DNA from: Paenibacillus piri
Lineage (GTDB): Bacteria > Bacillota > Bacilli > Paenibacillales > NBRC-103111
Assembly (NCBI RefSeq): GCF_004354045.1
Contig: NZ_SMRT01000007.1
Span: 62,001-126,000 of the forward strand
Length of the DNA stretch: 64,000 bases
Direction: 5' to 3'
The stretch's first letter is position 1. The number at the start of each line of letters is the position of its first letter. The notes beneath the pieces were generated by a model, which worked only from the letters and a program-made list of their open reading frames with translations, ran no database searches and was not told where the DNA came from. The position numbers were made by a program, and so were the translations under genes. Positions 28,549-45,285 of the stretch are shown here, piece by piece.

Positions 28549-30450
28549 TTATTGCGTGTATACGCCGATTAAACGTTTGGACTCGCCGGCCGGCGTTTGG
28601 AACACTTCATACAGCTTAACGGTCAATGGTCGCTCCAATTGTTCGGAGGTGGCATTCAGCATAATATTGTTTTCTCCCGAAACGAGCCGGTTGGCTCCCG
28701 TGAAGCTGACTGGCGTCGCTCCGATCAGGTTGTTCGTCGAGTTGTAGATTTCGAACTGCAGCTTCGAGAAGGAAGGATCAAGCTGAACTTGCTCGGCGCG
28801 TTTCAGCTCCAGATCGAATCTTACTTTATAAGAATAGGTCATATCGCCTCTGCGATTAAACATCGGAGTGATCGTCCAGTAACCGACCTTCGCTTCAAAC
28901 GGATACACATCAAACGATTCGTTCGTATCCGGCTGCTGCAGGCCGATTCCGTAAGAGGCGATCGTTGTTTTATACGGCGCCGCTTTTTGCGTATCGTTGA
29001 CCCGTATGATCAGGCCGCTGCCGGTTTCGGAAGCCGGGAGCGTATAGGCATAATTGATGACGACGCCGGAATTGGGCAATATGCGCTGCGCCGCTATATT
29101 TTGACGGCTGCCGGTATATGTATAGCCATCCGAGCTGACCAGATCCGTTTGGAAAACGGGTACTGCCATCGGCTGATCCGTTTTATTAAACAGCTTGAAC
29201 TTGGCCGTAACGCTTTTGGAACCTTCATCCTCATTATCATTCATATGGAATTCGACGATCGACACATCCAAATTCGGGTGAATCAGATCGCTTAAAGCAT
29301 CGAATTTCATCGTTTGCCCGATCTGATAAGAGGATGCGGCGGTCCGTGCGGTGCTGTCCGGCAAAAGCACCTTCAATCTGCCGACGAGATAAGACGTCTG
29401 CTGCCCTCCGGCCTGAGCGAATTTTTCCGGCGTCAACACGGTCAGGCTGGACAATGCCGTATCGTTGTCGGTCGCTATCGCATAGTGCACATATTTTTTC
29501 TCTTTCGGCTCAAGGATGATTTCACCCTGCTCCATCTTTTGGCCGGAATAGGACTGGGAATCCGCCTTTTTCAATCCTGTCGCGCCTACAGCGGCTGCTG
29601 CAGCGTTTGCCGCCGCCGGAGCCGCTCCGGAAGTGTCTGCGCTGCCCGCAGCCGCCGTTCCGCCGGCAGCCTCCCCGGCAGCCGGCGGAACGGCCGAAGC
29701 CGCGGCTCCCTGCGCGATTTTTTCACCGGCATATACCTGCGAATCCGATTTGCCGTCGATGAGAAATTCGGGCAGCGTTTCGCGTTGGCCGGTCGGATTC
29801 GTTACAAGCAGTTGAACGACTTGCACCGTCCCCTTCTCGGTCACTTCCTTGTCGATGCTTAGCGGTTGAAACTGCAGCGGCGAAAGCAGCGACGGAATCG
29901 TGAACGTTTCGCCCCATTTCTTGATCATCGCCGGATTCGTAATCGGCGCATCCGCGCCCTTCCAGGCTTGATCGCTGATCGGAACGGCGACCATCAACGT
30001 TTCTTTTTTCGGGTAAACGTAATAGTCGACATCCGTCCAATTAACCTCGGCCAATGTTACGGTGTCCGTGCGATCGACTACGGCCAAATAGCTTAATTCC
30101 GTTTTCGCCTTCGGCTGGATCGATTTCGGGTTCGCCGCGCTCGCCTGCAGCGTATATTCCACACCGTCATTCGTTTTCATGCGCACCTCATATTCCGGTA
30201 CGCGCGCAACCGCTGCGCCGTTATTATTCATTCTGACGACAACGCCAAGCCTCGTTCCTCCGAGAACATGCTCGTTCAATACGGTTTTAAGCTCCACGCT
30301 TAACGTATCGTTTAACGGATAAGAAACGGCCGCGGCCGATTCGGCATTCATGTCTGCGGACGGTGCGGCGATAGCGGTAAAGCTTGTTGTCATAAGCGAG
30401 GTTGATATCACAACGGTCGTTACCGTTTTTTTCCAGTTCATCTTCAACAT
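28549..30450 (-). CDS. Secreted multidomain protein of the RND cluster (unknown family)
   Basis: The 633-residue protein has a signal peptide (MNWKKTVTTVVISTSLMTTSFTAIAA, read in parts) and then several beta-rich modules with the pattern VVRMNNNGAA-VARVPEYEVRMKTNDGVEYTL. A Gly/Ala/Pro-rich stretch of about 45 residues lies near residue 250, flanked by the related sequences KSDSQVYAGEKIAQG and KADSQSYSGQKMEQG. A protein of the same pattern closes the ABC cluster at 35674. It is the last gene of the RND operon, 22 bases after the adaptor gene, and probably works outside the membrane with the pump. AGGAGGAG precedes the ATG. Confidence 0.65.
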   Translation of the reverse strand: MLKMNWKKTVTTVVISTSLMTTSFTAIAAPSADMNAESAAAVSYPLNDTLSVELKTVLNEHVLGGTRLGVVVRMNNNGAAVARVPEYEVRMKTNDGVEYTLQASAANPKSIQPKAKTELSYLAVVDRTDTVTLAEVNWTDVDYYVYPKKETLMVAVPISDQAWKGADAPITNPAMIKKWGETFTIPSLLSPLQFQPLSIDKEVTEKGTVQVVQLLVTNPTGQRETLPEFLIDGKSDSQVYAGEKIAQGAAASAVPPAAGEAAGGTAAAGSADTSGAAPAAANAAAAAVGATGLKKADSQSYSGQKMEQGEIILEPKEKKYVHYAIATDNDTALSSLTVLTPEKFAQAGGQQTSYLVGRLKVLLPDSTARTAASSYQIGQTMKFDALSDLIHPNLDVSIVEFHMNDNEDEGSKSVTAKFKLFNKTDQPMAVPVFQTDLVSSDGYTYTGSRQNIAAQRILPNSGVVINYAYTLPASETGSGLIIRVNDTQKAAPYKTTIASYGIGLQQPDTNESFDVYPFEAKVGYWTITPMFNRRGDMTYSYKVRFDLELKRAEQVQLDPSFSKLQFEIYNSTNNLIGATPVSFTGANRLVSGENNIMLNATSEQLERPLTVKLYEVFQTPAGESKRLIGVYTQ

Positions 30451-30472
30451 GATCTCCTCCTGTGGCCGCTAT

Positions 30473-31723
30473 TTACTTGGCCAGCTGTACTTTTTCTTTG
30501 TCTTTTAATTGGTTTTGACCGGAAACGATTAATTGTTCCCCTTCTTTGATGCCGGAGAGCACCTCTTGGATCGTCTCATTCAGGCGGCCCAGCTCGACCT
30601 TGCGCTTCTCGGCGACGTCGCCCACCAGAACGAATACGAATGTATCGCCACCTTCTCGCACAACGCTAAGCGTCGGTACGGTAATGACCACTTCATCCTT
30701 CTCTTCGGTCAGCAATATTTGCACCTTGCTGCCCGGCTTCAGCTTCCGTTCGGCATTCGACACTTGCAGCTCCAACGAATACGATTTGGATTGAGCGCTC
30801 ATGACATCGGCCAAATAGCTGATTTGCCCTTTGAGCTTGTCTTTGCTGCCCGGCACATAGAAGCCTAGTTCCTGTTTGCCGCGAATAAGCGCAGCGGACG
30901 CCTCCGTCAGTTCGGCTTTGATTTTGACCGGATCAAGCTGCTGCACCTGCGCCGCTTTAAATCCGGGAGACAAGCTCATGCCTGTCTCGATGGGAAGCTC
31001 CGTGAGCACGCCGCTGACAGGCGCCTTCAGCTCCATATTTTCCAATGTACGGTCCGCTTCGCGAACCGAAAGATTCGACGATTCCAGCTGCGTTTCGAGC
31101 TGTGACAACGAATTGGTCGACTCCAACGTTTTCAGCTTGTTTTTCGCGCTTTCCAAATCCAGCTTCAAGTTATTGAGCTGGGTTTCCATCTGATCGAGCT
31201 GATTTTTCGTAATAAGACCGGAATCATAATCATTACGTCCTTTGCTATAGCTTTTTTCGGCGTCTTTTACTGCCGTTTCCGACTTGGTTACAGCGTTTTG
31301 CAAATCGACCTTCGAATTGGCCAAATCTTCCTTCGCCTTCGTCAACTGCTGACCAGCGCTTTTAACTCCCAGCACGCCTTTTTGCTTTTGCAACGCCACG
31401 TCGGTTGGGTCCATTCTCGCAATGACCTCTCCTTTTTGTACCAGCTCTCCGCGCTTCTTATAAATTTCAAGCACATCGCCGTTTGCTTTCGTCACCACGT
31501 CCATCGTTACCGACGATACGACATCCGCCACCTGTTCCAACGGATCGCCAATCGATTTCTTCGTGATAGGGCTGACCTTGACTGTTTTCAATGCCGCCTC
31601 CGCAGCGTTAGGCTGCGGTTTGGCCGCAGGTGCCGTGCAGCCAGTCAGCAGCGCTGTGCTCAATACGACGGCCCCCATCCATTTCGTGCTATGTTTGACC
31701 GATTTCATCTTGTTTAAGTTCAT
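30473..31723 (-). CDS. RND efflux adaptor lipoprotein (HlyD/MFP family)
   Basis: A lipobox (LSTALLTGC) follows the signal sequence, so the protein is a membrane-anchored lipoprotein. Two lipoyl-like halves (VTKANGDVLEIYKKRGELVQKGEVIARMDP and VSGVLTELPIETGMSL) flank a coiled-coil hairpin of about 110 residues (SKVDLQNAVTKSETAVKDAEKS...). C-terminal beta-barrel and membrane-proximal domains follow. It links the RND pump encoded upstream to the extracellular side. The ATG at 31723 is chosen because AAAAGGAG lies nine bases before it. Confidence 0.87.
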   Translation of the reverse strand: MNLNKMKSVKHSTKWMGAVVLSTALLTGCTAPAAKPQPNAAEAALKTVKVSPITKKSIGDPLEQVADVVSSVTMDVVTKANGDVLEIYKKRGELVQKGEVIARMDPTDVALQKQKGVLGVKSAGQQLTKAKEDLANSKVDLQNAVTKSETAVKDAEKSYSKGRNDYDSGLITKNQLDQMETQLNNLKLDLESAKNKLKTLESTNSLSQLETQLESSNLSVREADRTLENMELKAPVSGVLTELPIETGMSLSPGFKAAQVQQLDPVKIKAELTEASAALIRGKQELGFYVPGSKDKLKGQISYLADVMSAQSKSYSLELQVSNAERKLKPGSKVQILLTEEKDEVVITVPTLSVVREGGDTFVFVLVGDVAEKRKVELGRLNETIQEVLSGIKEGEQLIVSGQNQLKDKEKVQLAK

Positions 31724-31753
31724 TTGCCGATTCTCCTTTTCCATGTCTCTCTA

Positions 31754-34700
31754 TTAATGAATAACCGTCGGCGTGCTAGGCTGCACGTCGGCTGGTTGAG
31801 TTTTTTTTCTGAACAATCTCGCCACTCTGCCTTTAAATCGGTCAATCATTTCATAAACGATCGGCACGATGACAAGCGTTAGCAGGGTGGAGGTCGTTAA
31901 ACCGCCGATGACGACAACCGCCAGTCCTTTGGAAATGAGCGTTCCTTTCGACAGACCCAATCCAAGCGGCATGAGAGCGATAATTGTCGCGCCGGCCGTC
32001 ATAATGATCGGTCTCAATCGGGTCATTCCCGCCTCGACCAACGATTCGCGTACGCTGTGCCCGCTTTCGCGAAGCTGCTGCACCCGGTCGACCAACACGA
32101 TCGCGTTCGTTACGACGACGCCGATCAGCATCAAAAATCCGATAAGCGACGTAATATTTACCGACTCGTTGGTAACGAACAGCCCGAGCAACCCGCCGAT
32201 CGCCGCAAGCGGCAGCGAGAACAAAATGGCGAATGGCGCGCTGCCGTTTCCAAAAGCAAGCACCATGACAAGATAAACGATAAAGATGGAAGCGCCCATC
32301 GCGATAAACATTTGCTGGAAGCTCGTTTGGATGTCATCGGTTACCCCTTTGACCTGCGTCCGTACATCGCTCGGCAGCTCGACGGTTTTGAGCGCTGCGC
32401 TTACCTTGGCGCTGACGCCCCCCTTATCGACGCTGTCGATTTTGGCGTTAACCGTCACAATCTGCTCTTCCGCTTCGCGCGTAATGGCAACCGGTGCGTC
32501 GATCTGGCGGACCTTGGCTACCTCGTTCAGGCTTACTGTCGCGCCGGTGGCGGTTTTAATCGGGAAACGCCCGATCTTGTCGACGGAATCCTTAAAGGAA
32601 GAATCCAGCATGACCTTTGTTTTAAAGGTCGTATTGTCGAACTTCAAGTCCCCGATTTTTTCTTCCGCCAGCCAGCTGTGCACCGTTTCCGTAATTTGAG
32701 CGGACGACAAGCCGTACAGCCGGGCTTTATTTTGATCGACATTAATTTCAACCTCGGTTTTCGATTCGCTGAGCGAATCTTTAATTTCGATCATTTCGGG
32801 AAATTCCTTCATCTTGGCCTTAACCAGCTCGGCAGCCGCCTTCAGGCTGTTCAAATCATCGCCCTTCAGCGCATAGGAAAAGTCTGTATTGGAACCGCCC
32901 GGCCCGCCGCCTGCGAGTACTTGCCCCTCCGCTTCGGAGCCTTTTGGCAGCGTGAATAATATTTTCTCTTTGTACTGCTTCACAACCTCTTTGGCATGGG
33001 CATCCTTGGACGCCGCTGCAAAAAACATCGTCCGGTACGGAATGCGGTCCGTACCGTTGTTATAACCGATGAGCGACTCCACGTAATCGAAGGTCGGCTG
33101 TCCGTTCGGCTCCTTCGCTTCGCGCAGCACGCCTTCAATTTCCTTGACCTTCGCATCCATCGTTTCAATGGAGGTTTCACGGGGCATTTTGATCGAAAAC
33201 ATCATTTGCTTATCCGCTTCGCTCTCCGGCATAAACGATGTGGACAGGAACGGCGCAGTCGATACAATCGTTACAATAAATAATATGAAGGCCAGAAGCA
33301 TCGTTTTTTTGCTGTTATTAAGCGACCAAATCAACGTCTTTTTGTAGCCGGCCGAAAATTTTCCCAACGATGCTTCTTCATGATGCGCTTTGATTTTGCC
33401 TTTCATCACCATCAGCTTCGCCATCATCGGAATGACGGTTAATGCAACGATCAGTGACGACAGCAGCGCGACAACCAGCGTAATGGCAAAGGGACGGAAC
33501 ACCTCGCCCAACACCCCGCTGACAAATGCGATCGGTCCGAATACCCCAACCGTTGTAATGGTCGAGGATGTGATGGCCGAAGCGACCTGCGCCGTCGCCA
33601 TGCGGATGACCGATTCGTTGCGTTCCTGGGCTTTTTCCAATTCGCTGTAAATATTCTCGATAACGACGATACTATCGTCGACGACCCGGCCGATCGCAAT
33701 TGCCATACCGCCGAGCGTCATAATATTTAATGAAATGCCGAGCGGACCCATAACCAGCAGCGTGACCAGAATGGAGAGCGGGATCGAGACGAGTACGATG
33801 ATGGTCATCCGGATATTCCGGAGAAACAATAAAATCATGATCGAAGCCAAAATGGCTCCGAGCGAGCCTTCCTGCACCATACCGTTAATCGAATGCTTGA
33901 TGTCCACCGCGCTGTTGTAAATCGTATGGAACACGATGTTCGGATACTGCTCTTTCCAGCCGGCCATCAGCTTATCGGCTTCGTCGCCGAATTCAACCGC
34001 GTTGGCATTTTTGGTTTTGAACAAGTGGACGCCGATCGCCGGCTGTCCGTCCAAGCGGGAGCGGAAGGTCGATTCCGTGATCGCTTCCACTTTGGCGATC
34101 TGTCTCAGCAGCAGCGTATCGCCTGCAACCGTCGTTATTTTCATATTTTCAAGATTGTACACCGAGTTCAAATCGCTTTTGACCCGAACCATCTGGGTGT
34201 TGCCGTTAAAATCGACCGAGCCTGCGGGACTGCTCAGAAGCGCCGACTTAATGCTTCCTGAAACCTGTGCCGGCGTTAAATTGTAGTTCGTCAGCGCATT
34301 CGCATCCAGCTTCATCGTTAAAACCGCTTCCTGGTTGCCGATGGAGTCGACATGGTCGATGCCTTTGATGGATTCGAAGCCCGGCAAAATCACGTCCTTA
34401 TACACTTTGTCGAGATCCTGCTGACTCATGCCGTTCTTTCCGTACACCGACAAATAATAAACCGGCTCGGACGCGAATCCGAATGTCTGTACCTTGGGCT
34501 TTTCCGCGCTTTGGGGCAGCTTTACGTTGGAGATCAAGCTCTCCACATCCCGTTTGGCGTCCTCGGATTTAATGTTATTTTCCAGCTCAATGACGATGGA
34601 CGAAAAGTTGTCGCTGGAGGTGGAACTTAACGTTTTGGTGCCTTCAAGACTTGAGACCGCCTTTTCCAACGGCTTCGTAATATCTTCAAGGACATCCTTT

Positions 34701-34867
34701 GGAGGCGCCGTATACTGGGTGTTGATCAAGACGACCGGAAAGGAAATATCCGGGAAGCTTTCCACCTTCAGAGTGGTCGCCGTATACATACCGCCTCCCA
34801 GCAAAAGAAGGGCAATAATAATGACGGCGGTTATGTTTTTCATTGAAAATTGAGTCAACTTATTCAT
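31754..34867 (-). CDS. RND family efflux permease (AcrB/SwrC type)
   Basis: The 1037-residue protein has the full RND layout: helix 1 (ITAVIIIALLLLGGGMYTATTL), a large extracytoplasmic loop, helices 2-6, a second loop and helices 8-12. The proton-relay acidic pair is present in helix 4 (AIGRVVDDSIVVIENI), and the FISGVLG-like and IGVVVTNAIVLVDRV motifs are conserved. In Gram-positives such pumps (YerP/SwrC) export surfactants, antibiotics or lipids without an outer-membrane partner. It is preceded by its putative regulator and followed by its adaptor. Confidence 0.92.
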   Translation of the reverse strand: MNKLTQFSMKNITAVIIIALLLLGGGMYTATTLKVESFPDISFPVVLINTQYTAPPKDVLEDITKPLEKAVSSLEGTKTLSSTSSDNFSSIVIELENNIKSEDAKRDVESLISNVKLPQSAEKPKVQTFGFASEPVYYLSVYGKNGMSQQDLDKVYKDVILPGFESIKGIDHVDSIGNQEAVLTMKLDANALTNYNLTPAQVSGSIKSALLSSPAGSVDFNGNTQMVRVKSDLNSVYNLENMKITTVAGDTLLLRQIAKVEAITESTFRSRLDGQPAIGVHLFKTKNANAVEFGDEADKLMAGWKEQYPNIVFHTIYNSAVDIKHSINGMVQEGSLGAILASIMILLFLRNIRMTIIVLVSIPLSILVTLLVMGPLGISLNIMTLGGMAIAIGRVVDDSIVVIENIYSELEKAQERNESVIRMATAQVASAITSSTITTVGVFGPIAFVSGVLGEVFRPFAITLVVALLSSLIVALTVIPMMAKLMVMKGKIKAHHEEASLGKFSAGYKKTLIWSLNNSKKTMLLAFILFIVTIVSTAPFLSTSFMPESEADKQMMFSIKMPRETSIETMDAKVKEIEGVLREAKEPNGQPTFDYVESLIGYNNGTDRIPYRTMFFAAASKDAHAKEVVKQYKEKILFTLPKGSEAEGQVLAGGGPGGSNTDFSYALKGDDLNSLKAAAELVKAKMKEFPEMIEIKDSLSESKTEVEINVDQNKARLYGLSSAQITETVHSWLAEEKIGDLKFDNTTFKTKVMLDSSFKDSVDKIGRFPIKTATGATVSLNEVAKVRQIDAPVAITREAEEQIVTVNAKIDSVDKGGVSAKVSAALKTVELPSDVRTQVKGVTDDIQTSFQQMFIAMGASIFIVYLVMVLAFGNGSAPFAILFSLPLAAIGGLLGLFVTNESVNITSLIGFLMLIGVVVTNAIVLVDRVQQLRESGHSVRESLVEAGMTRLRPIIMTAGATIIALMPLGLGLSKGTLISKGLAVVVIGGLTTSTLLTLVIVPIVYEMIDRFKGRVARLFRKKTQPADVQPSTPTVIH

Positions 34868-34936
34868 CTCTCTACTCCTCCATTACATTTGCTGACAACT
34901 TAGACGTAGCATTGCCTGTTAACCCTTCATTTTTTT

Positions 34937-35470
34937 TCATAAATTGGATTCATTAGCAGGAAAAAGCTGTTTCTTGCGCTCGTCCCACTCCTCCTCCAGC
35001 CCATCCAGACGGTCTAAAAAAATTTGATGCAGCTCCTTCATTTCGACAAATCTTCGCCTGGAGATGTCATAGGAACGACGCTCCTCCTGCTCGATTTGCT
35101 CCAAGCTGTTAAACTGCGCCAGCGTCGATTCCATCTGCTGCAAAACGCCTCTCATTTTGACGATGCTGTTCTGAACGGCCTTCATGCTGAAATCTTCCGA
35201 TATGTAGTAATAATCTTTGCGGTCGCTTGCGGTCGGCAGCTTCTGGCACATCAAATGCTTCTCAAGCGTTCTCACCTGTACGCTGATCGCCGCTTTGGTG
35301 ACGCCAAGCTGATCCGCCATCTCCTGCAGGCTGACCGGCTCCACAGAAAACAGCAAATACGCAAAAATCCGCCCGACCAGCGGACTGAATCCTTCATTCT
35401 CGAACGTGAGCGACATATGGTCGGTGATACGCTGCTTCAAGCCGGCATACGAATGTTGCGCTGATCTCAT
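34937..35470 (-). CDS. GbsR/MarR-family transcriptional regulator of the RND cluster
   Basis: The 177-residue protein has a winged helix (EPVSLQEMADQLGVTKAAISVQVRTLEKHLM) followed by a wing and a long C-terminal dimerisation helix (SRRRFVEMKELHQIFLDRLDGLEEEW), the layout of GbsR-type MarR proteins. GAGGAG lies six bases before the ATG. It is the first gene of the RND operon, and an exact inverted repeat overlaps its own transcription start, so autorepression and release by a pump substrate are likely. Confidence 0.85.
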   Translation of the reverse strand: MRSAQHSYAGLKQRITDHMSLTFENEGFSPLVGRIFAYLLFSVEPVSLQEMADQLGVTKAAISVQVRTLEKHLMCQKLPTASDRKDYYYISEDFSMKAVQNSIVKMRGVLQQMESTLAQFNSLEQIEQEERRSYDISRRRFVEMKELHQIFLDRLDGLEEEWDERKKQLFPANESNL

Positions 35471-35500
35471 AGCAATCTCCTCAATTGTTTACGTTGTTGT

Positions 35501-35554
35501 CGTTAAGAACAATCTTAACGTTAATAACATATTTCCTTTTGAAAAAGTTGTCAA
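35501..35554 (-). promoter_or_regulatory. Promoter and operator of the RND operon
   Basis: On the minus strand TTGACA (35549-35554), 17 bases, then TATGTT (35526-35531). The inverted repeat CGTTAAG-AACAAT-CTTAACG (35501-35520) starts six bases after the -10 and covers the start point, a typical place for a MarR-type repressor. Confidence 0.75.
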
Positions 35555-35602
35555 TACATTTTCTGACAAATTAACAAAACATTCATAAAAGGAATAATCA
35601 AC

Positions 35603-35646
35603 AAAAAAAACGTCCCGTCATGCTGCATGCAGCTTCTGACAGGACG
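35603..35646 (-). terminator. Terminator of the ABC export operon
   Basis: On the minus strand CGTCCTGTCA pairs with TGACGGGACG around a self-complementary GCTGCATGCAGC loop, followed by eight T. It lies 28 bases after the last gene. Confidence 0.9.
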
Positions 35647-35673
35647 GTCGGTTGTCAATGAAATCATGGTCAT

Positions 35674-37839
35674 TTAATCGGTTGTTGAGAACCAGTCGAT
35701 CTTTTTGCTCGCAAGCAGCTTCTTCTGCCCTTGGAACGAATCGTAAATGCTCAGCTTGTATGTTTTCAACGTTTCCAGTTTAAAAATAAGGTCCTGATCG
35801 CGCTCGATAATTTTAACGCCGTCATGCTTGCCGATTTTCAGCTTTGTGATCGCCGTATCCTCGCTCGAGCTTTCCGCTCCCGCATCGCTCGTGTCAAAAT
35901 CTTTGAAATCGAACTCTCTTGTAAACGTCTTGTTGCCGTTCTCGTCCTCCAAGCCGATCACCAGCTTGCGGCCTTCCGTATTTGCTTCCATCAGCAAGTT
36001 TTTGGTCAGCTCATAATTGAAGGTCAGTTTCAGCTGCCCTTGCAGCAGCCATGTATTGATATGATTCATTGAGAATGTGTACGGCATCAGATCGACGTTC
36101 AGCAAATCGTCCGCGACGGTTTTGTTTTCGTCCGGCAGCCAGAAGGCGGCGGCATTGACGTAAGCATCCGGCACGGCGTCTTTTTCCGTATATTTATCCT
36201 CGGTCACAGCCTCGCCGATCATTACATGCATATTGGAGGTCGGGAAGCCTTTGGGCAGTGCAGCGGACAGGTACAGCAGCGCGGAAGAACCAGGTGCTAC
36301 CTTTTTCTTAATGTCCGAAACGGCGGCCGGGTAAACCGTACCGTCAGCCGTCTTCAGCTGAGCGACCAGCTTGGACACATCGGTGAACCGTTTCTCCAGA
36401 TTCGTAGCCTCCAGCTGTACGGTGAAAATATCAGCCGTATCGCCTCCATAGGTTCTGATGCTTTTCACCGAGTAGCTCGCGCTGCGGCCGACATTGGTCA
36501 TTTTATGCGTTTCGCCGACATTGAGGTAAGGGACGTTCAGCAGCTCGGAGGTTTGCGCAAACTCCAGCAGCTCCTCCGCCTCATTCTCGCCGGTTTTCTC
36601 CTCCAGCACCAGCTTGACGGTTGAAAACGGGTACGTGTACGGCATTTTCCCGATAAACTGGAAGTTCGCGGAGGCGCCCTTCGGCAAGCCGATCGTCTTA
36701 TCCGTCCTTATCAGCTTCGCCTCCACCTTCACCGCGTCGTCCAGCATGTAATAGCCGGTCAGCTCGGGAATCGGCAGCGCCTCCGGTCCCTTGTTCATCA
36801 GCGAAATATTGGCCGTCAAAATATCCTGATCCTCCCACGGCAAACGCTGGAACGAGTTCAGCACGGTCGTATAAGTGCCCTTCTTGTTCGTAAAATGGTA
36901 CTCGATTCCCGTAGCGACCGCATCCGTGTCCGATACGGCCGGCATTTGGAAGTAAGCGATCGGCAAATTCAATTTGATATCTGCCGCCTCCTGCACGATG
37001 ACGAGCTGCCAGCCGTCCGTGCTGACGGCAATAGGCACAGAGCCGGAAAGCTCGATTTCATCCTCGACAACCTGCGGATTGATCGTCAAATCTTTCTTTT
37101 TCTTGGCGTCCATAGGATACATGAACCCCTCCTTCGTGCGCAGCAAATATTGATAGCCGGGAACGACAGCCGTACGGTTGCCAATATTCTCCATCCTGAG
37201 GACGACAGTCGGCGAATAGTTTTTCTCATTTTTGGTCATGAGCACTTTTTTAATCGATGTTTTCACATCGGTGCCCGACATCGAAATCGCATGCGAGCCG
37301 CCAACCGGCGTCAACGTCGAATAATCGTCAGGTACGGAGACATCGCCGACTTTGCGTTCAAAGTTGGGCTGGCTGAAATCCCATTTGATAAACTCAAACG
37401 CCAGCTGATTGAGCTCTGTCGTCTCGTTGATGGATGCGTAAAAGTTAATATCCTGAACGGTTTTAGCCGAAATTTTGTTCTTTTCCTTATCCTGCGGCAG
37501 GATGCGCACCGAAATCTGCTCGCCGGTTTTCGTCCGCAGCCGCACCCAATAATCGATAAATAATAAATCCGTGCTGCTCTCGTTATGAACGCTAACCGTA
37601 AAGGTGACCGTTCTTCCTTTTTGCTCGGTTAGCATCATCACATTTTTCAGTTCAAAGAAGCTGCCGCCATCGATTTTAACCGTTCCAAGCGCCGGAGCGT
37701 TACCCATCGTCAAAGTGGCTGCGCCGCCGCTTGCGGGCGGCGCAGTCGTCCCTTCGGCGGCCCATGACGGGGAGGCGCCGCCGCATGTCAGTGCGGCAGC
37801 CAACAGCCATATGCAAGCCGAGTTTTTTTTCCGTTTCAT
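35674..37839 (-). CDS. Secreted multidomain protein of the ABC cluster (unknown family)
   Basis: The 721-residue protein starts with a signal peptide (KNSACIWLLAAALTCGGASPSWA-A) and consists of at least four beta-rich modules, for example VVLRMENIGNRTAVVPGYQYLLRTKEGFMYPM, which match the pattern of the secreted protein at 28549. A longer upstream start at 38037 would overlap the solute-binding protein gene; the ATG at 37839 has GAGGG upstream and a signal peptide directly after it. It follows the binding-protein gene by seven bases and ends the operon. The function is unknown; an extracellular partner or substrate chaperone of the exporter is the simplest guess. Confidence 0.65.
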   Translation of the reverse strand: MKRKKNSACIWLLAAALTCGGASPSWAAEGTTAPPASGGAATLTMGNAPALGTVKIDGGSFFELKNVMMLTEQKGRTVTFTVSVHNESSTDLLFIDYWVRLRTKTGEQISVRILPQDKEKNKISAKTVQDINFYASINETTELNQLAFEFIKWDFSQPNFERKVGDVSVPDDYSTLTPVGGSHAISMSGTDVKTSIKKVLMTKNEKNYSPTVVLRMENIGNRTAVVPGYQYLLRTKEGFMYPMDAKKKKDLTINPQVVEDEIELSGSVPIAVSTDGWQLVIVQEAADIKLNLPIAYFQMPAVSDTDAVATGIEYHFTNKKGTYTTVLNSFQRLPWEDQDILTANISLMNKGPEALPIPELTGYYMLDDAVKVEAKLIRTDKTIGLPKGASANFQFIGKMPYTYPFSTVKLVLEEKTGENEAEELLEFAQTSELLNVPYLNVGETHKMTNVGRSASYSVKSIRTYGGDTADIFTVQLEATNLEKRFTDVSKLVAQLKTADGTVYPAAVSDIKKKVAPGSSALLYLSAALPKGFPTSNMHVMIGEAVTEDKYTEKDAVPDAYVNAAAFWLPDENKTVADDLLNVDLMPYTFSMNHINTWLLQGQLKLTFNYELTKNLLMEANTEGRKLVIGLEDENGNKTFTREFDFKDFDTSDAGAESSSEDTAITKLKIGKHDGVKIIERDQDLIFKLETLKTYKLSIYDSFQGQKKLLASKKIDWFSTTD

Positions 37840-37846
37840 GTTGTCT

Positions 37847-39310
37847 CTACCCTCTTCCTCCCGGAATTCCATTCGGATTATTTTGAATTTGCTGCAGCAT
37901 GGCATCGCCGTCGGTTTGCCATTTTTTGAGCGCTTCGCGAACCTGCATTTTACCTTGAACGACATCATTGAATAAACGCCGTCCGATATCCTGCGCCGGA
38001 TAAATATTCGGATTACTTCTGAAAACTTTGCCGTCAACCTGAGGTGCCGGCGTCAAGGTCGTGAAGGCTTCCATATGGAACTGGACGCCGTCCTTTGGCT
38101 TGATATATTTTTTGCGGGTCACGATATTATAAGAGCTGGTTGACTTCAGACGGGCCCAATCCTCGCCGTTAATAAATTTAATGAATTTCCATGCATCGTC
38201 AACATTTTGCGCTTTCGTATTGATGCCCATAATTCCGTTCATCCCGATCTGGCCGCCCACTTCAGGCGCTTCCGGATGCACAGGCATCGTGACGACATCC
38301 CAGTCGATCGGCGTAAAGCCTTTAATGCTTTGCGCGTTCTTGTTGGCGTTGTTGATCTGGCTGATTTGCCCGTAATTAATAATCGACATGGCTACACGGC
38401 CGGATAAAAAATCATCGAATTGGAACGGATTGAAATCTTCACCGCTCGCATTCATGACGCGGCTTTTCATCGCTGCGGGCTCCTGCTGCTGCGGCGTTAT
38501 TTTATCCTGGGAGAGCTGAACCATCCGTTTCCATACTTTTTCCCATTGATCCGTATCAACGGTCATCTTTTCGCCTTTCTCGTCAAACATGCTCAGCTGC
38601 AGCGGAAGCGTATAAGCCTGCTGCATGGAATAAAACATATCCCCCATCGATTGCGTCGAGAACGAGAAGCCGTATTTCCGGTTGTCCCCTTCTCCCTTGG
38701 TCAACCGTTTGCCTAGATCGAACGTTTCGTCCCAAGTCATTTTATCCTTCGGATACGATACGCCCGCTTCGTCAAACATTTGCTTGTTAAAGATGAGAGC
38801 CGAAGAATTGAAGGTCGGCGCCAACGCATACAGCTTGTTGTCTCCCACCTTCTTCAAGCCGTCGATGACGGCGGGAACCATGTCCGAAGTATCGAACTTA
38901 TCCTTGGTGATCATCGGATCCAGCTGCATCAGCAAATTGCCGCCGATCAAATCTTCGAGCTGCTCGTAGTTGACCATGACGACATCCGGCGGGTTATCGC
39001 CCTGCATCACTTCCTTCAGCTTTTCCATCGGATCGGCAGGCTTCTTGTTCGGATCATACCTTCCATAACGCATGCTTTCATCCGCCGTCGAAATCATTTC
39101 CAGCTTAATATTGGGGTTGGCGAACTCAAATACTTCCGTAAATTGTTGGCGGAAATATTCGTCATCCCCGTAACCGAAGCTCGTTGCTACCCGCAGCACC
39201 CGCTCCGTGTTCGTATTGCCGCTCCCGGTCTTGCTGCATGCCGAAAGCATCGGCACCATAAGACTTGTGGAAACGGTAAGCAGCATCGTTCGTTTCACCC
39301 ATGTTTTCAT
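37847..39310 (-). CDS. Extracellular solute-binding protein (family 1), lipoprotein
   Basis: The 487-residue lipoprotein (lipobox LMVPMLSAC) has the family 1 fold of sugar-type binding proteins: YGDDEYFRQQFTEVFEFANPNI, PDVVMVNYEQLEDLIGGNLLMQLDPM and a C-terminal GGQIGMNGIMGINTKAQNVDDAWKFIKFINGE segment. CUT1-type permeases normally follow such a gene; none is here. It lies between the AbrB-tailed ATPase and the secreted protein of a MacAB-like export operon, so it may sense or deliver a ligand to that complex. GGAGGAG precedes the ATG. Confidence 0.82.
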   Translation of the reverse strand: MKTWVKRTMLLTVSTSLMVPMLSACSKTGSGNTNTERVLRVATSFGYGDDEYFRQQFTEVFEFANPNIKLEMISTADESMRYGRYDPNKKPADPMEKLKEVMQGDNPPDVVMVNYEQLEDLIGGNLLMQLDPMITKDKFDTSDMVPAVIDGLKKVGDNKLYALAPTFNSSALIFNKQMFDEAGVSYPKDKMTWDETFDLGKRLTKGEGDNRKYGFSFSTQSMGDMFYSMQQAYTLPLQLSMFDEKGEKMTVDTDQWEKVWKRMVQLSQDKITPQQQEPAAMKSRVMNASGEDFNPFQFDDFLSGRVAMSIINYGQISQINNANKNAQSIKGFTPIDWDVVTMPVHPEAPEVGGQIGMNGIMGINTKAQNVDDAWKFIKFINGEDWARLKSTSSYNIVTRKKYIKPKDGVQFHMEAFTTLTPAPQVDGKVFRSNPNIYPAQDIGRRLFNDVVQGKMQVREALKKWQTDGDAMLQQIQNNPNGIPGGRG

Positions 39311-39357
39311 TCAGGCACTCCTCCATGTGATTAATATTCTCTTTCGTGACACCCTTG

Positions 39358-40227
39358 TTAAGTAAGCGATTTGGGGGGACGGATAATGATTTTATCCCCG
39401 TCAAACTCCATTGACGCCTTGTTGTCGATCCCCAGTGCCTGCAGATAAGTTTTCGGAATTTGCAGCCGGCCGGCCCGATCCAGCACGACGTATTCCTCAT
39501 GCGCTTCCTGAATCGAATGCCCGCCCGCTTCCAGCTGATCCAAATTCGGATTCCGCTTAATAAATTCCGTGCTGGTCATGCCGTCGCGAATGGCAACGAC
39601 ACGGTCCACCTTGCCAGCCAGCGTCATATCATGGGTGACGATAACGATGGTGACGCCCAGCTCGCGGTTCAATTTGCGGAAAATATCCATGATCATGTCG
39701 GATGTTCGCGTATCGACCGAACCGGTCGGTTCGTCAGCCAGCAGCAGCGAAGGCCGGTTGGCCAGCGAAATCGCAATCGCGACGCGCTGCTGCTCGCCGC
39801 CGGACAGCTGCTGCAGCTTGTTGCCCATCCGCTCCTTAAGGCCTACCCATTCAAGCAGCTGCTTCGCATAGGTCCGGTCATACTGCCCGCTCAGCATCAT
39901 CGGCATCTCCACATTTTCCAGAGCGGTTAAATAGGGCACCAAATTGCGGGCGTTGTTTTGCCAAATGAAGCCGACGGTTTTACGTTTGTACTTGACCAGC
40001 TCGTCGTCGGTAATTTTTAGCAGGTTCCATTCCCCGACCTGAACCTGGCCGGCCGAAGGACGGTCGAGGCCGCCCAATATATTCAGAAGCGTCGACTTGC
40101 CGCTGCCGCTGTTGCCGATGATCGCCATCATTTCGCCGTCGGCCACGCTGATGTTAAGCCCTTTTAGAGCGACGACCTCGATGTCGTCGGTTTTGTAAAT
40201 TTTGACGAGCTCCTCGCATGAAATCAT
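39358..40227 (-). CDS. ABC ATPase (LolD/MacB type) with C-terminal AbrB-like domain
   Basis: Walker A GNSGSGKS (38-45), Q-loop Q90, signature LSGGEQQR (141-148), Walker B LLLADEP (161-167) and H199 are all intact. Residues 245-285 (EYVVLDRAGRLQIPKTYLQALGI then FDGDKIIIRPP) match the swapped-hairpin AbrB/MazE fold, normally a DNA-binding or dimerisation unit. It may couple the ATPase to regulation or stabilise its dimer. Its ribosome site GGGGAGG lies inside the end of the permease gene, four bases upstream. It is the second ATPase of the operon. Confidence 0.85.
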   Translation of the reverse strand: MISCEELVKIYKTDDIEVVALKGLNISVADGEMMAIIGNSGSGKSTLLNILGGLDRPSAGQVQVGEWNLLKITDDELVKYKRKTVGFIWQNNARNLVPYLTALENVEMPMMLSGQYDRTYAKQLLEWVGLKERMGNKLQQLSGGEQQRVAIAISLANRPSLLLADEPTGSVDTRTSDMIMDIFRKLNRELGVTIVIVTHDMTLAGKVDRVVAIRDGMTSTEFIKRNPNLDQLEAGGHSIQEAHEEYVVLDRAGRLQIPKTYLQALGIDNKASMEFDGDKIIIRPPKSLT

Positions 40228-40230
40228 CGC

Positions 40231-43161
40231 TTATTTCTCCTCCCCGAGCTTCACCGCTTGATGCACCCGCAGCCTGCGGATATGAAGGAATAACAGGCAG
40301 GCGCCGGTCAGCATCATGAAGGCTACGACGATGTAAAGCTGATCCGTATCCCGCGCATTGAATACGACCCGGAACGGCGGCACCTGCATCTTGACGTTTT
40401 CCGCAGTTTGCAGGAAAGGCAGGAACAGGTAGCTGGTCAGCTTGCCGATTCCAATCCCCAGAGCGATGGAAAGTCCGGCCGTAAAGCCCTGCTCAAGCAG
40501 CAGCATCCCGGTCAATTGCCGGCGCGACAGTCCCATCGCCCGCAGCACGCCGAACTGGACAACCCGGCTCGACAAATTGAAGAACCAGTACAGGATATAG
40601 CCGATCAGCGAGACGAGCACGGATACGAGAAAGCCGAGACTCAAAATCCCGAACACGCCGCCGCGGGCGGGATGCTTTTTCTGTGCAATCAGCTCGTTGC
40701 GCACATCCTTGACGCTTGCAATCTGAATCTGCTTCTCATTCAACGCTTCGATCAGCGGAGTCGTCTTCGCCCCCTCCTTCATCTTCAGCCACACCTCATA
40801 CGGCGTCATTGGAGCCTGATCGTAAATATAGTCCAAATTCGTGATGAAAAACGGCATTTGCTCCGGATATTGGCTGGGCCAGTACGGAACGGTGGCGACG
40901 ACAACAAATTCGATCAGCTGCTGCTGGACGGAGATGCTGATCAGATCGCCCGCTTTAATATGATGCTTCTCGGCAAATGAGGTCGGCACAATGGCCGCCT
41001 GTTCATACGTCCCCAACAGATTTAAATACCGGAAAGGATGCGCCTTGAACAAATCGCTGCGGAACCAGGCCACTTTGGCAAAATCGACATTATCGATACC
41101 CATCAGCATTCCCTGCCCCAGCGATTTGCCCGATACGACCACATTTCCTTTGGTCCGCAAAACGCGGGCGGCATGCTCCACGCCTTCCATTTGCCTGTAA
41201 ACCTCAAAAGGAGGCTCCACATACCGCAGCTTGGGCGGCGGATCATCCATGCCGGGACCGCCGCCGCCAGGAGCGCCTCCCTGCTGCCCGCCGCCTCCCT
41301 GCGCGCCTCCGGAACCGCCGGCCGACCCCGAGCCCGAACCGGATCCGCCAGCGCCGCCGTTCTGCCCGCCGGATTGATCCTGTGGCAGCTCGTCGGAGAC
41401 GCCTTCCCATACGGGCTGCAGCACGACATCCGACCCGTAGGCGTATAAAATGCGGTCGGTCGAATTCAAATCAATCGTCCGGGCGGCCGATGAATTGTAT
41501 ACGCCCAGTCCAAGCGTCAAAATCAATAAAAGCATGAGCGGATAATACGATTGGGCGGAACGCGACAGCTGCGTCAGCGTCAAATATACCGGCACCGGCA
41601 AAAACCTTTTGCCAATCCAATTCCAAAGGCGCAGCAGCCACGGAAATATCCGCAAAAAAAACAAGCCTAAGGCGATAATCGACAAGGCAGGTACGAAAAA
41701 CAGCAGCGGATGCACCTGCAGCTGATCCGTCGTCAAGCCCGTTTGCACGGACAAAACCTGTCTTTGATCAAATAAATAGTAGCCGTAGACGACTACGCCG
41801 ATCAGCAGGACGTCGAGAAACCACTTCTGCCAAAACGGCGGCTTGTCGGAACGGGCCAGCTTTTGCTTATAGCCAACGATGGACGATCTGGCAAAGACGA
41901 CAGCCGGAATGACGCTCGCCATCAACGCAATCAGCACGGCGGCGGCGCCATAGAACAACGCCTCCGCCGAAACGCCGACCGGTACGGATTGGCGGTCGAC
42001 GAACGTCAGAAATCCGCTTGAGGAGCCGATGCTCTTCGCCATGAACCAGCCAAGCAGCGGACCGATCAATAAGGCGGTAATTCCTAGCAGCAGTCCTTCG
42101 AGCACGTATATCCCGATAATTTGCCGCGTACTGCCTCCCCGGCTGCGCAGCACCGCAATGACGCTGCGCTGACGGTCAAGTGATTGGCGGGCATTCATGA
42201 CTATATAATAGAACACCATGGCAATCATCGGCGCCGCCAATGTAAACAACATGATTTGCAGCTGCAGGCTTTGCGTTTTAAACTCTTGCAAAATGGGAAT
42301 AAACGATAAATCGACTCGCGTATTTTTCAATTTTTGATACAATATGACGTCCAGCCGTTCCAGCTTCGTTTCAAGAGGCGACAGCTGACTCGTCTGAATA
42401 TTCCGCAGATCGAACGCATAATACCAGTTCGCAAGGTTCAGCGGTATTTTTTTTTGCTTCAATATGTAATCTTGGAAAACCGGCTCGCTCGCAAAAAATG
42501 TATTGATAAGTCCTTCCTGGCCCTGAAACCAGTACGGATCGTCTTCGGACTTCGGCTTGACGGTGCCGGCCACCCTTAATTTCAATGGCGCAATGCCCAG
42601 CCCGCCGCTGATCGGATACGAAAATACGTCGCCGACATGAATGTCGTTGCGGTACATCGCTTCTTCCATCATGACCACGTCCACAACGCCTCCGGACATC
42701 GCATCCGCGAACCAGTTACCCTGGGCAAGCTCCGCATGCTCCTTCAGACTGTTTTGCGACATCAACGTCATTTGCCGCTTCTTGCTCGGATCCACCTTCT
42801 GCGGATCGTCCGGCGTAAGCTGGGCGGCGCGAATGGAATAGCTCTTGACGTAGGTTTGATACGGGAAAGCAATTTCTTTGGGAAGCTCGTTCTGAATATA
42901 TTGATCGGCATCGGCCAATGCATCGAGCTCCGCCTTATCGCTGCCCGCCGCCTGAAAGCGGATCAGCACGGAACCGGCCGGCAAGCCGCCGTTTTTCTCC
43001 TGCAGCGACTTCGTAACGACTCTTTTCAAAGAGCCGTCGGCATACATCGGAATGCTTGTCGTAAAAGCTACGGCCATAATCAAACCAAGCAGTGAGCTGA
43101 CGGTCAGCCAGCGCGTATTCCACATTTTACGGAATAAAAAACGAAGCATCGGCATCGACAT
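40231..43161 (-). CDS. FtsX/MacB-like ABC permease with two FtsX modules
   Basis: The 976-residue protein has an N-terminal helix and large extracytoplasmic domain, an FtsX module (LFTLAAPMIAMVFYYIVMNARQSLDRQRSVIAVLRSRGGS), further helices, a second extracytoplasmic domain opened by a Gly-rich linker (about residues 597-637, with runs such as GGQQGGAPGGGG) and a C-terminal FtsX module (SRVVQFGVLRAMGLSRRQLTGMLLLEQGF). This is a fused, double-module permease that can form the channel part on its own. Its start overlaps the adaptor stop (TGATG). It should work with one or both flanking ATPases. Confidence 0.85.
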   Translation of the reverse strand: MSMPMLRFLFRKMWNTRWLTVSSLLGLIMAVAFTTSIPMYADGSLKRVVTKSLQEKNGGLPAGSVLIRFQAAGSDKAELDALADADQYIQNELPKEIAFPYQTYVKSYSIRAAQLTPDDPQKVDPSKKRQMTLMSQNSLKEHAELAQGNWFADAMSGGVVDVVMMEEAMYRNDIHVGDVFSYPISGGLGIAPLKLRVAGTVKPKSEDDPYWFQGQEGLINTFFASEPVFQDYILKQKKIPLNLANWYYAFDLRNIQTSQLSPLETKLERLDVILYQKLKNTRVDLSFIPILQEFKTQSLQLQIMLFTLAAPMIAMVFYYIVMNARQSLDRQRSVIAVLRSRGGSTRQIIGIYVLEGLLLGITALLIGPLLGWFMAKSIGSSSGFLTFVDRQSVPVGVSAEALFYGAAAVLIALMASVIPAVVFARSSIVGYKQKLARSDKPPFWQKWFLDVLLIGVVVYGYYLFDQRQVLSVQTGLTTDQLQVHPLLFFVPALSIIALGLFFLRIFPWLLRLWNWIGKRFLPVPVYLTLTQLSRSAQSYYPLMLLLILTLGLGVYNSSAARTIDLNSTDRILYAYGSDVVLQPVWEGVSDELPQDQSGGQNGGAGGSGSGSGSAGGSGGAQGGGGQQGGAPGGGGPGMDDPPPKLRYVEPPFEVYRQMEGVEHAARVLRTKGNVVVSGKSLGQGMLMGIDNVDFAKVAWFRSDLFKAHPFRYLNLLGTYEQAAIVPTSFAEKHHIKAGDLISISVQQQLIEFVVVATVPYWPSQYPEQMPFFITNLDYIYDQAPMTPYEVWLKMKEGAKTTPLIEALNEKQIQIASVKDVRNELIAQKKHPARGGVFGILSLGFLVSVLVSLIGYILYWFFNLSSRVVQFGVLRAMGLSRRQLTGMLLLEQGFTAGLSIALGIGIGKLTSYLFLPFLQTAENVKMQVPPFRVVFNARDTDQLYIVVAFMMLTGACLLFLHIRRLRVHQAVKLGEEK

Positions 43162-44444
43162 CAGCGGCCCACTACTTTCTGTCCCGGCGTCAAGCCTTTA
43201 ATGATTTCGACGTCGGTAGCGGTTTGCTGGCCGATTTCCACGTCCACTTCCTTCTTGTTCCCCTGCTCGTCGACGACCTGCACATAGTTGCGTCCGGAAT
43301 AGGAACGAAGCGCGGCAAGCGGAATCAACACGGCCTTCTCTTTTCGCTGAGTAATAATCGAAACGCTGAGCGGCGCTCCCCGGTTTAAGCCTTGAGGCAT
43401 TTCATCCAGTTGTACGACGAGGTAGTTGTCGATCGTGTCGATCGGCTTCGCTTGGTTGTTTCCCCCCTGATTGCCCTGGTTTCCGTTATTGCCGTCATCT
43501 TCCTTCGGAACCGGAAGCTGTGTTACCTTCCCCTTATGCTGACCGGCTCCGTTAATATCGACGACCGCCTCCATGCCGACGGATACTTTTTTCAAGTCAT
43601 CCTGGTTTAAAGTCGCCACTACCGTCAGCTGCGCCAAGTCGGCAATCGTCGCGACAACGCCGTAAGCCTGGGCCGAGTCGCCCTTTTTCATATAAAGGGT
43701 AACAATCGTGCCGGCAAAAGGCGCCTTCAGCTTCGCATTGGCAATCGTCTCTTCGAGCTTGTTCAATTCTTCGCGCTTCAGCTCAAAATCAATTTTGGCC
43801 TGTTCCAGCGATTCCGCGCTCATTTCATCGGCCTTGCGCAGCGATTCGATCATCGCAAGCTCGTCCTTGCGCGTCTGCAGCCTTTGCTGCTTCAGCTTGC
43901 TCTCCTGCTCGGTCACATCCAGCTCGGCGATAACCTGACCCTGCTCGACCTTGTCCCCCGTTTTTACATTCATCGCTTTGATGCGCCGGTTCGCTTCATC
44001 GGTAAAATACAAATCTTCCTCTTTGGTCGCCATCATTCTGCCGGAGCCGCGCACCTTCGTTTCCAGCGTATCGGTCTTTACGACGTACTCCGGTTTTTTG
44101 GACAGCTTCGGAGGGGTGATCGCAGGCAGCGTCTCCTCTTCGTCTTCCTTAGGAAGGATCGAGCATCCGGAGCTGACGGCCATTACGGAGGCCATGCAAA
44201 TAATAAACAGCATTCTCGCCGATCTTCCGGGAGTCCGGTGAATGTATGCGCGTTGTGCAGGCGGTTCATTGTTCCGTTCGCTGTTGTCTCCTGAATTATT
44301 GGATTGAAACCGCTCCAGCAGCGGTAAAAATCCGGTTAAAAGGGCAAGCGCGGACGCTTCTCCGGAACGATTCCGGCCTCTCCGCTTCTTGCCGGCTGAA
44401 TTTCTAGCCGTTAATAAATTTTCCATCCACCATTTCGAATACAT
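43161..44444 (-). CDS. MacA-like/HlyD adaptor of the ABC exporter
   Basis: The 427-residue protein has a hydrophobic segment and lipobox-like LFIICMASVMAVSSGC at about residues 79-94, then paired lipoyl-like halves (DKVEQGQVIAELDVTEQESKL and LKAPFAGTIVTLYMKKGDS) around a short coiled-coil hairpin and a C-terminal barrel. The ATG at 44444 has GGAGG nine bases before it, which leaves a 77-residue Arg/Ser-rich extension ahead of the lipobox, unusual for a lipoprotein. It overlaps the upstream ATPase gene by 41 bases. It should bridge the permease to the extracellular partners. Confidence 0.8.
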   Translation of the reverse strand: MYSKWWMENLLTARNSAGKKRRGRNRSGEASALALLTGFLPLLERFQSNNSGDNSERNNEPPAQRAYIHRTPGRSARMLFIICMASVMAVSSGCSILPKEDEEETLPAITPPKLSKKPEYVVKTDTLETKVRGSGRMMATKEEDLYFTDEANRRIKAMNVKTGDKVEQGQVIAELDVTEQESKLKQQRLQTRKDELAMIESLRKADEMSAESLEQAKIDFELKREELNKLEETIANAKLKAPFAGTIVTLYMKKGDSAQAYGVVATIADLAQLTVVATLNQDDLKKVSVGMEAVVDINGAGQHKGKVTQLPVPKEDDGNNGNQGNQGGNNQAKPIDTIDNYLVVQLDEMPQGLNRGAPLSVSIITQRKEKAVLIPLAALRSYSGRNYVQVVDEQGNKKEVDVEIGQQTATDVEIIKGLTPGQKVVGR

Positions 44445-45285
44445 GGTCGGCAACCTCCATAATTGTCGGATCATGTGTTGTCATACAAATCGTAACCTGC
44501 TCAGTTTGAATAATATCGCGAAAAACGGCCATCACCTGTGCCCCCATCTGCGAATCGAGCTCCGCAGTCGGCTCGTCGGCCAGCAGCAGACATGGACGGT
44601 GAGCTATCGCCTTGGCAATGGCCACACGCTGCTGTTCTCCGCCGGACAGCTCGAACGGACGGTGATGCATCCGCTTGCCCAGCCCGACCAGTTCCAGGCA
44701 GTGAGCGGTTCGCCGTTTCCATTCGGAACGCGGCACCTCGGCCATACGAAGCGCCAGCTCCACATTTTCCCAAGCCGACAGCAACGGCATCAGCGCAAAC
44801 GATTGGAAAATGAAGCCGATTTCCTTGCGTCTGATTTGCGTGCGCTGATCGTCACCGCTTTGGTGAAAAGCATGCCCCATAAATACAATCTCGCCCTTAT
44901 TGGGCTGATCCAGGCCGCCGATCATATTAAGCAGCGTCGTCTTCCCCGAGCCTGAGCGTCCCTTTAACATGACAAGCTGCATCGGGTACAACGCCATATC
45001 GATCCCCTTCAGCACATGCAGCTGCCCGCCCCCTACGGGAAAGGAACGCTCCACACCGGAAACGGTGAGCAGCGGCTTCGTCTCGTCCCAAGCACGGGGC
45101 TTAAACAGCGGACCTTTGCCGATCGATTTCTCCTCCTCCGGCTGCTGAACGGCCTGCCGGCTCGACCCGGCGTCGTCAGACGGCTGTGCGTCTGATGTCG
45201 AAACAGCTTCCCGCCGCTCCCCTGTCGAATCTGAAACCTGCGTTGATCCGGCGGTTTTATTTTTTGATCGCAGCCAGCCTATCAT
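44404..45285 (-). CDS. ABC ATPase of the MacB/LolD type, first gene of the export operon
   Basis: After a Ser/Glu-rich, probably disordered extension of about 70 residues, the domain has Walker A GRSGSGKT, Q-loop FQSF, signature LSGGEQQR, Walker B LLLADEP and an H-loop TTHD. It is a typical FtsX-partner ATPase. It leads the operon of adaptor, permease, second ATPase, solute-binding protein and secreted protein. A TATAAT-like -10 lies at 45511-45516 on the minus strand, but no good -35 is seen. Together with the second ATPase, the operon has two ATPases for one fused permease. Confidence 0.88.
   Translation of the reverse strand: MIGWLRSKNKTAGSTQVSDSTGERREAVSTSDAQPSDDAGSSRQAVQQPEEEKSIGKGPLFKPRAWDETKPLLTVSGVERSFPVGGGQLHVLKGIDMALYPMQLVMLKGRSGSGKTTLLNMIGGLDQPNKGEIVFMGHAFHQSGDDQRTQIRRKEIGFIFQSFALMPLLSAWENVELALRMAEVPRSEWKRRTAHCLELVGLGKRMHHRPFELSGGEQQRVAIAKAIAHRPCLLLADEPTAELDSQMGAQVMAVFRDIIQTEQVTICMTTHDPTIMEVADHVFEMVDGKFING

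Follow-up and report, generated by a model that had tools for sequence, protein, structure and literature searches.

Why should two unrelated export pumps of a single-membrane bacterium each be followed by a secreted protein of the same kind? The question is raised by a locus of Paenibacillus piri lying on contig NZ_SMRT01000007.1 (positions 62,001 to 126,000, a stretch of 64,000 nucleotides hereafter called the window). Here the final gene of a resistance-nodulation-division (RND) operon codes for a secreted 633-aa protein, IgR (28549..30450, minus strand), while the adjoining ATP-binding cassette (ABC) genes include a paralogous secreted 721-aa protein, IgA (35674..37839, minus strand). Both are predicted to be chains of immunoglobulin (Ig)-like domains. 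Their relatives occur beside exporters of several classes, with the HlyD-type adaptor as the constant companion of IgR, and we regard it as roughly 50% probable that the IgR/IgA family provides exporters based on such an adaptor with an accessory, third component on the wall side.

A paralogous family of secreted proteins

IgR and IgA belong to one paralogous family. The peptides quoted in the original prediction of this relationship (beginning VVRMNNNG and VVLRMENIG) are present, and the paired segments, IgR 70-114 in its first domain (R1) and IgA 212-256 in its second (A2), align in BLASTP with 36% identity over 45 aa (E 2e-5 as a single comparison). Profiles were built for both from collected relatives (56 IgA rows and 46 IgR rows; probability of collinear alignment 98.4). 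Family against family, hhalign gave a collinear alignment of near full length with a probability of 98.2 and a score of 123.1 over 583 columns, compared with 13.8-24.8 for 20 column-shuffled controls and 20.7 for the reversed profile. The paralogy that had been proposed is thus borne out by a significant profile match. The predicted structures, each judged singly, are both beta-sandwich chains, the IgA model being of middling confidence (pLDDT 76.9, pTM 0.56).

The AlphaFold2 model of IgR (pLDDT 83.5) has four predicted beta-sandwich domains, these being R1 (41-160), R2 (176-366, with a disordered Ala-rich insert at 244-302), R3 (372-506) and R4 (508-633). That of IgA has five, namely A1 (46-172), A2 (180-302), A3 (308-434), A4 (440-570) and A5 (575-718). 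The start of IgA was taken as 37839 because the longest frame (38037, TTG) overlaps the preceding gene for a solute-binding protein. Compared domain by domain, the profile of R1 matches both A1 (E 8e-10) and A2 (E 3e-11) and that of R3 matches A2 (E 7e-10), while the final domains R4 and A5 match each other only (E 9e-8). No good partner was found for R2 among the IgA domains (best probability 23.3).

A sequence search of the PDB with both profiles found no relative (best E 0.15 and 0.69). The 50 Foldseek matches listed for each model were all either Ig-like or beta-sandwich chains of a generic sort or else large proteins without relation to the family, with query TM-scores of at most 0.15. 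DUF4352 (PF11611) was rejected as a family label, IgR and IgA scoring 18.3 and 21.7 bits against a curated cut-off of 25.9; a P. piri paralogue (G000:C1) barely passes it (26.2 bits) and also passes DUF3426 (29.6 bits, cut-off 27.7).

Both proteins have Sec-type signal sequences, read by eye, and no membrane-spanning part was noticed beyond the signal. Secretion and, for IgR, the last place in the operon would suit an Ig-like protein that serves each pump as its exported product or as a decoy. This is highly improbable, as a protein with its own Sec-type signal needs no RND or MFS (major facilitator superfamily) pump and as it is larger than the usual substrates of such pumps.

Linkage to HlyD-type adaptors

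Gene contexts were counted for 164 of 203 distinct proteins that had enough flanking sequence; the 39 dropped, largely IgA at locus edges, lay less than 5 kb from the locus start. The IgR contexts are loci of the window's own taxonomic family. Neighbour labels came from BLAST to reference genes and were checked in part by Pfam, the labels Wzz, CpsD, GalU, Ugd, TetR and Pst being assigned by the look of the sequence.

An HlyD-type adaptor gene lies on the same strand within 4 kb of IgR in 89/89 proteins (30/30 clusters at 60% identity), 87 of these directly and two after recovery by tblastn of adaptor genes masked by an antisense frame. Further IgR loci, not deduplicated against the 89, have the adaptor in 18/18 cases. 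The nearest labelled gene is RND in 63 of the 89, ABC-2 in 13, Wzz/CpsD in eight, MFS in three, and another exopolysaccharide gene and MacAB in one each. The pump beside the adaptor and the family member therefore varies (RND, MFS, ABC-2, MacAB or long FtsX), and in the exopolysaccharide-type loci none of these adjoins the pair. The sharing of one kind of secreted partner by pumps that are not related, first noted for RND and ABC, accordingly extends more widely, namely over RND, MacAB-type or long-FtsX ABC, MFS, ABC-2 and exopolysaccharide-type loci. With IgA, a same-strand adaptor was found within 8 kb in 57 of 75 proteins (56 directly, one by tblastn). Eight IgA loci from another family of the order (L275-L282) comprise five with a MacAB-type set including an adaptor and three with a neighbour resembling S-layer homology (SLH) proteins. 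The adaptor, and not the cargo, is the constant of IgR, and for IgA an adaptor is commoner than its absence.

In the P. piri genome an adaptor adjoins all seven family genes, the one at C12 being recognised by BLAST to the ABC-side adaptor of the window and absent from the Pfam lists. The genome has 15 adaptor genes, which puts the chance at about 1.6% for a single gene and at 2e-13 for 7/7 if the genes were independent, which the two in the present block are not. Across 51 RND loci the distance of IgR goes with that of the adaptor (partial r 0.79 with the pump held fixed) more than with that of the pump (0.35 with the adaptor held fixed), both correlations being inflated by shared ancestry. 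No adaptor-Ig gene fusions were seen among the open reading frames scanned.

The original prediction had proposed a common job in handling a cell-surface or lipid cargo. In this explanation the Ig-like chains would bind exported lipid, lipopeptide or polysaccharide outside the cell, with pumps of like cargo sharing chains. It can draw on the IgR-adaptor pairs in Wzz/CpsD and Wzx/Ugd loci and beside lasso-type genes, on the sugar-type solute-binding protein that belongs to the ABC part of the block, and on weak Foldseek matches to RbmA, a biofilm matrix protein. However, no sign of one cargo was found: the pump classes are too different and share no evident substrate, all 89 IgR proteins go with the adaptor, and related chains serve both MFS and RND operons (see below). 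A common cargo was therefore rejected, and cargo handling as such is considered unlikely.

Fusions to SLH domains

IgR relatives with a fused SLH (wall-binding) region were identified in at least six proteins, from 4 of 13 genomes of the genus. In the P. piri member at L342 (818 aa), the SLH region precedes the IgR domains. Pfam confirmed SLH in the one fusion tested, and the P. piri paralogue P0003 has SLH. The fusions stand at the usual IgR position in MFS operons (L342, L344, L346) as well as RND operons (L345, L347, L348). A quick tree of 101 IgR rows needs six changes of pump label, against a shuffled mean of 34.3 and with 0/200 shuffles reaching so low a count; in it the six SLH fusions group as a single clade within the MFS-linked IgR. 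This position inside the MFS group, together with the occurrence in RND operons, suggests that the gene has switched from one pump type to another, and the IgR module seems exchangeable between pump types.

Two other P. piri loci combine SLH proteins with adaptor-equipped pumps. A minus-strand run at L341:7533-15841 (G000:C57:318532-326840) joins a 719-aa frame for an adaptor to an RND pump and to a 970-aa protein that has RCC1 repeats and SLH domains, the last being a second and unrelated wall-type protein beside an adaptor-pump pair. At L338:3-9886 (G000:C14) a 1003-aa SLH protein lies upstream of genes for a response regulator, histidine kinase, RND pump and RND-type adaptor, with no IgR behind.

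The adaptor tip and the outer-membrane channel

The hairpin tip of the RND-type adaptors has the conserved pattern K/R-x-[RK]-N-[DE]-[YF]-[DE] in 56 of the 60 compared, although the tip window ranks only 38th most conserved of 398. The RLS/RLT motif at the adaptor tip, as defined in the accessible text of PMC3391258, is TolC-binding; in the form RxxxLxxxxxx[ST] it was found within residues 111-215 of one of the 60. A lipobox-like Gly-Cys close to the N-terminus of MFPr, the RND-type adaptor of the window, is conserved over 60 relatives. A PF02321 search of the P. piri genome for a channel of the OEP/TolC family matched solely the hairpin of the window's own RND-type adaptor (22.6 bits, cut-off 22). 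Of the parts of a tripartite efflux system, the locus has the pumps (ACR_tran 5.7e-209; FtsX and ABC_tran) and the adaptors (TIGR01730, 157.4 and 110.7 bits), and no outer-membrane factor was found by this search apart from the hairpin match.

Proposed role

Found next to adaptor-equipped pumps of several kinds, and in some cases fused to a wall anchor, the family may be a missing outer piece of these pumps. From these associations we infer physical contact with the adaptor and a wall location also for the unfused members. The pump would load the adaptor ring with its substrate, and the secreted Ig-like chain would dock on the adaptor or close to it, with the conserved last domain (R4/A5) or the first repeat as the likeliest point of attachment. 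The chain might then keep the adaptor's outer end in place within the zone of the cell wall or S-layer, or else shield its exit. A further idea, conceivable though doubtful, is of a tripartite exporter peculiar to single-membrane bacteria of this order, with a secreted multi-Ig chain in the place of TolC. The chain would bind at the tip of the adaptor ring and would carry, or else anchor, the conduit across the wall as far as the S-layer, and one interchangeable family would serve RND, MFS, ABC-2 and MacB-type pumps.

Besides the rank of the tip window and the inflation of the distance correlations, a number of observations weigh against the role as a wall-side accessory component. The P. piri genome alone supplied the background rate of adaptor linkage, and half of its adaptor loci (6/12) are without a family member. 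One of them, L336 (C13), has TetR/MarR, RND and adaptor genes without IgR, while at the corresponding P. radicis and P. foliorum loci (L150, L158) IgR is present. The protein is thus dispensable for some pumps, and a strict need of every adaptor for an Ig protein is ruled out. Neither IgR nor IgA of the window has an SLH domain by Pfam. Lastly, 18 of the 75 IgA have no same-strand adaptor within 8 kb. Nine of these lie downstream of an SLH-like gene, five follow an MsbA-like ABC gene, one (L085) sits between PhoPR-like and Pst genes, one (L245) has an adaptor on the opposite strand, and L236 and L271 make up the rest.

The nine loci with an SLH-like gene count in favour of the role, and with the SLH fusions they tie a minority of the family to SLH-type wall proteins. 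These genes are upstream of IgA on the same strand (L086, L099, L274, L276, L279, L281, L284-L286); seven adjoin it directly, and at L281 and L285 one called frame lies between. Their products are about 1000-1200 aa, and their N-termini resemble the SLH part of L342, a label that comes from BLAST only, at 33-37% identity. In the one such neighbour tested with Pfam (L086, 1020 aa) no SLH domain was found, a further point against the proposed role; at the same locus the gene preceding it (1781 aa) carries SLH domains.

Two alternatives draw on such loci. One is that family members are surface-layer or matrix proteins which share only regulation with envelope exporters and have no functional tie to the pumps. 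The SLH fusions, the SLH-like neighbours and the IgA loci without adaptor agree with this, as does the unrelated RCC1-SLH protein following the adaptor-RND pair at C57:325k. If it held, one would not expect IgR to keep its place next to the adaptor so constantly, its distance to be tied more closely to the adaptor than to the pump, or the linkage in P. piri to be 7/7; this alternative is judged very unlikely. The other is envelope-stress sensing, with the secreted chain reporting the state of the wall or pump to the two-component or MarR/TetR regulators of the same loci. Response regulator and histidine kinase genes do adjoin many loci, including RND sets and a set of importer-type permeases, adaptor, MacB-type protein, solute-binding protein and IgA, and the IgA of L085 has PhoPR-like genes at its side. 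Nevertheless, the type of regulator changes (MarR, TetR, response regulator/histidine kinase or none seen) while the adaptor stays, and no membrane-spanning part was noticed in the proteins after the signal sequence; sensing is quite unlikely.

Gene organization of the block

The wall-side accessory role proposed above concerns two members of a single block of 10 genes on the minus strand (28549-45285). The original prediction had described neighbouring RND and ABC operons; both genes are where it placed them, but they belong to this one block and not to two clusters. In the order of transcription, from 45285 to 28549, it consists of a first ABC ATPase (ABC1), the ABC-side adaptor (MFPa), an FtsX/MacB-type permease, a second ABC ATPase (ABC2), a solute-binding protein (SBP), IgA, a MarR-type regulator, an RND pump, the RND-type adaptor (MFPr) and IgR. 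As read from the coordinates, gaps within each part are 3-47 bp besides small overlaps, while those flanking the regulator are 203 bp (IgA-MarR) and 69 bp (MarR-RND).

In the RND part, MFPr (30473..31744, minus strand) is a membrane fusion protein with HlyD_D23 (9.5e-19) and TIGR01730 (157.4 bits, cut-off 94.9) matches, and the pump (31754..34867, minus strand) is of the AcrB type (ACR_tran 5.7e-209). The regulator between the two parts (34937..35470, minus strand) passes the MarR model with 25.2 bits (cut-off 24.6). In the ABC part, IgA lies 7 bp behind the end of SBP (37847..39310, minus strand), a sugar-type solute-binding protein (SBP_bac_1 3.5e-21) with a lipobox read by eye. Upstream of this are ABC2 (39358..40227, minus strand; ABC_tran 3.1e-31) and the permease (40231..43161, minus strand), a 976-aa protein in which FtsX (1.3e-19) matches two stretches, giving two FtsX domains. 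It is not a member of the ADOP subfamily, scoring 20.7 bits with TIGR03434 (cut-off 622.3). MFPa (43161..44474, minus strand; HlyD_D23 6.3e-13, TIGR01730 110.7 bits, cut-off 94.9) has an uncertain start codon, its frame overlapping ABC1 (44404..45285, minus strand; ABC_tran 5.3e-33). It is also worth mentioning that the C-terminal stretch of ABC2 (250-287) shows a weak likeness to MazE/AbrB DNA-binding domains, MazE_antitoxin giving 19 bits, below its cut-off of 24.7.

Other arrangements of the family were also met with. At L069:2822-11073 (P. piri G000:C4), two BPD_transp_1 importer-type permeases, an HlyD adaptor, a MacB_PCD protein, a sugar solute-binding protein and IgA form one run, in which no ATPase was seen and importer and exporter parts are mixed. 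Loci L140, L151 and L156 have Wzz-CpsD-MFPr-IgR beside genes of the lasso-peptide kind (asparagine-synthase, HPr-kinase-like and transglutaminase-like) and an ABC exporter. Frame sizes at L153, L163, L169 and L173 are similar to those of these three loci, of which L140 was the one run with Pfam.

Distribution

Within the window's taxonomic family, profile P0001 has matches in 96 of 104 genomes and P0002 in 99 of 104, the two profiles cross-matching weakly. At the level of the order the IgR profile matches 118 of 198 genomes; 25 of these matches are weak (E 5e-8 to 8e-4), come from a single other family and could be relatives of IgA. In a sample of the phylum, the IgA profile matches 7 of 398 genomes, all from the same order as P. 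piri, a count from which distant relatives may be missing since few candidates were scored per genome. In the genomes sampled, this family of secreted multi-domain beta-sandwich proteins is therefore seen only in the order of P. piri.

A search of named Paenibacillus with the IgR profile gave 199 confirmed loci, and the named genomes given here come from its best 80, which lean to close relatives. A plus-strand IgR frame was called in 79 of these, and 29 of them show the order IgA-(MarR)-RND-MFPr-IgR. In Paenibacillus sp. P25 (L184) the same block has fragmented IgA and RND frames, through decay or sequencing error.

Comparison with known systems

Many Gram-positive bacteria have adaptors of the AcrA/MacA/HlyD type, which are widespread among them. 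A 2018 review asks, in its accessible text, what the job of these adaptors is where there is no outer membrane; its tentative answer is the clearing of space under the wall, and it reports YknX to be an adaptor able to bind peptidoglycan (PMC5985334). In a further source (PMC5768738), the model of the pneumococcal MacAB-like adaptor is a channel that leads towards the peptidoglycan layer. A 2026 review of adaptors names Gram-positive once, in its abstract (PMC13328181). A literature search, which took in partial texts and neither subscription papers nor preprints, found no description of an association between an Ig-like family and adaptors. A family that follows adaptors over several pump classes, and in part bears SLH, is a concrete and testable candidate for the missing partner of the Gram-positive adaptor. 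If this is true, the Ig-like family supplies what stands at the peptidoglycan-facing end of the adaptor in this order.

The Gram-positive MacAB-like systems Spr0693-0695 and YknWXYZ resemble the present block in having an adaptor and MacB-type ABC parts in a single membrane (PMC5768738, PMC5985334). They differ in that no secreted Ig-like partner is described in the accessible text of these sources, YknW being a membrane protein. The likeness to DUF4352 (PF11611) is a weak profile match to one domain each of IgR and IgA, both below the cut-off. The Enterococcus protein WxLIP has tandem Ig-like domains and is among the Foldseek matches (E 2e-3), although its target TM-score is only 0.24 and no sequence link was found; its setting is the Gram-positive cell wall. 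The SLH-anchored S-layer proteins of Paenibacillus have the same kind of SLH region as six IgR relatives, unlike the IgR and IgA of the window, which have none. Compared with AcrAB-TolC, MacAB-TolC and EmrAB-TolC, the third component here is a secreted beta-sandwich chain and not an OEP channel, and 59 of 60 adaptors are without the RLS/T motif (residues 111-215); what is alike is the combination of an RND, MacB-type or MFS pump with an adaptor and a third product used with several pumps.

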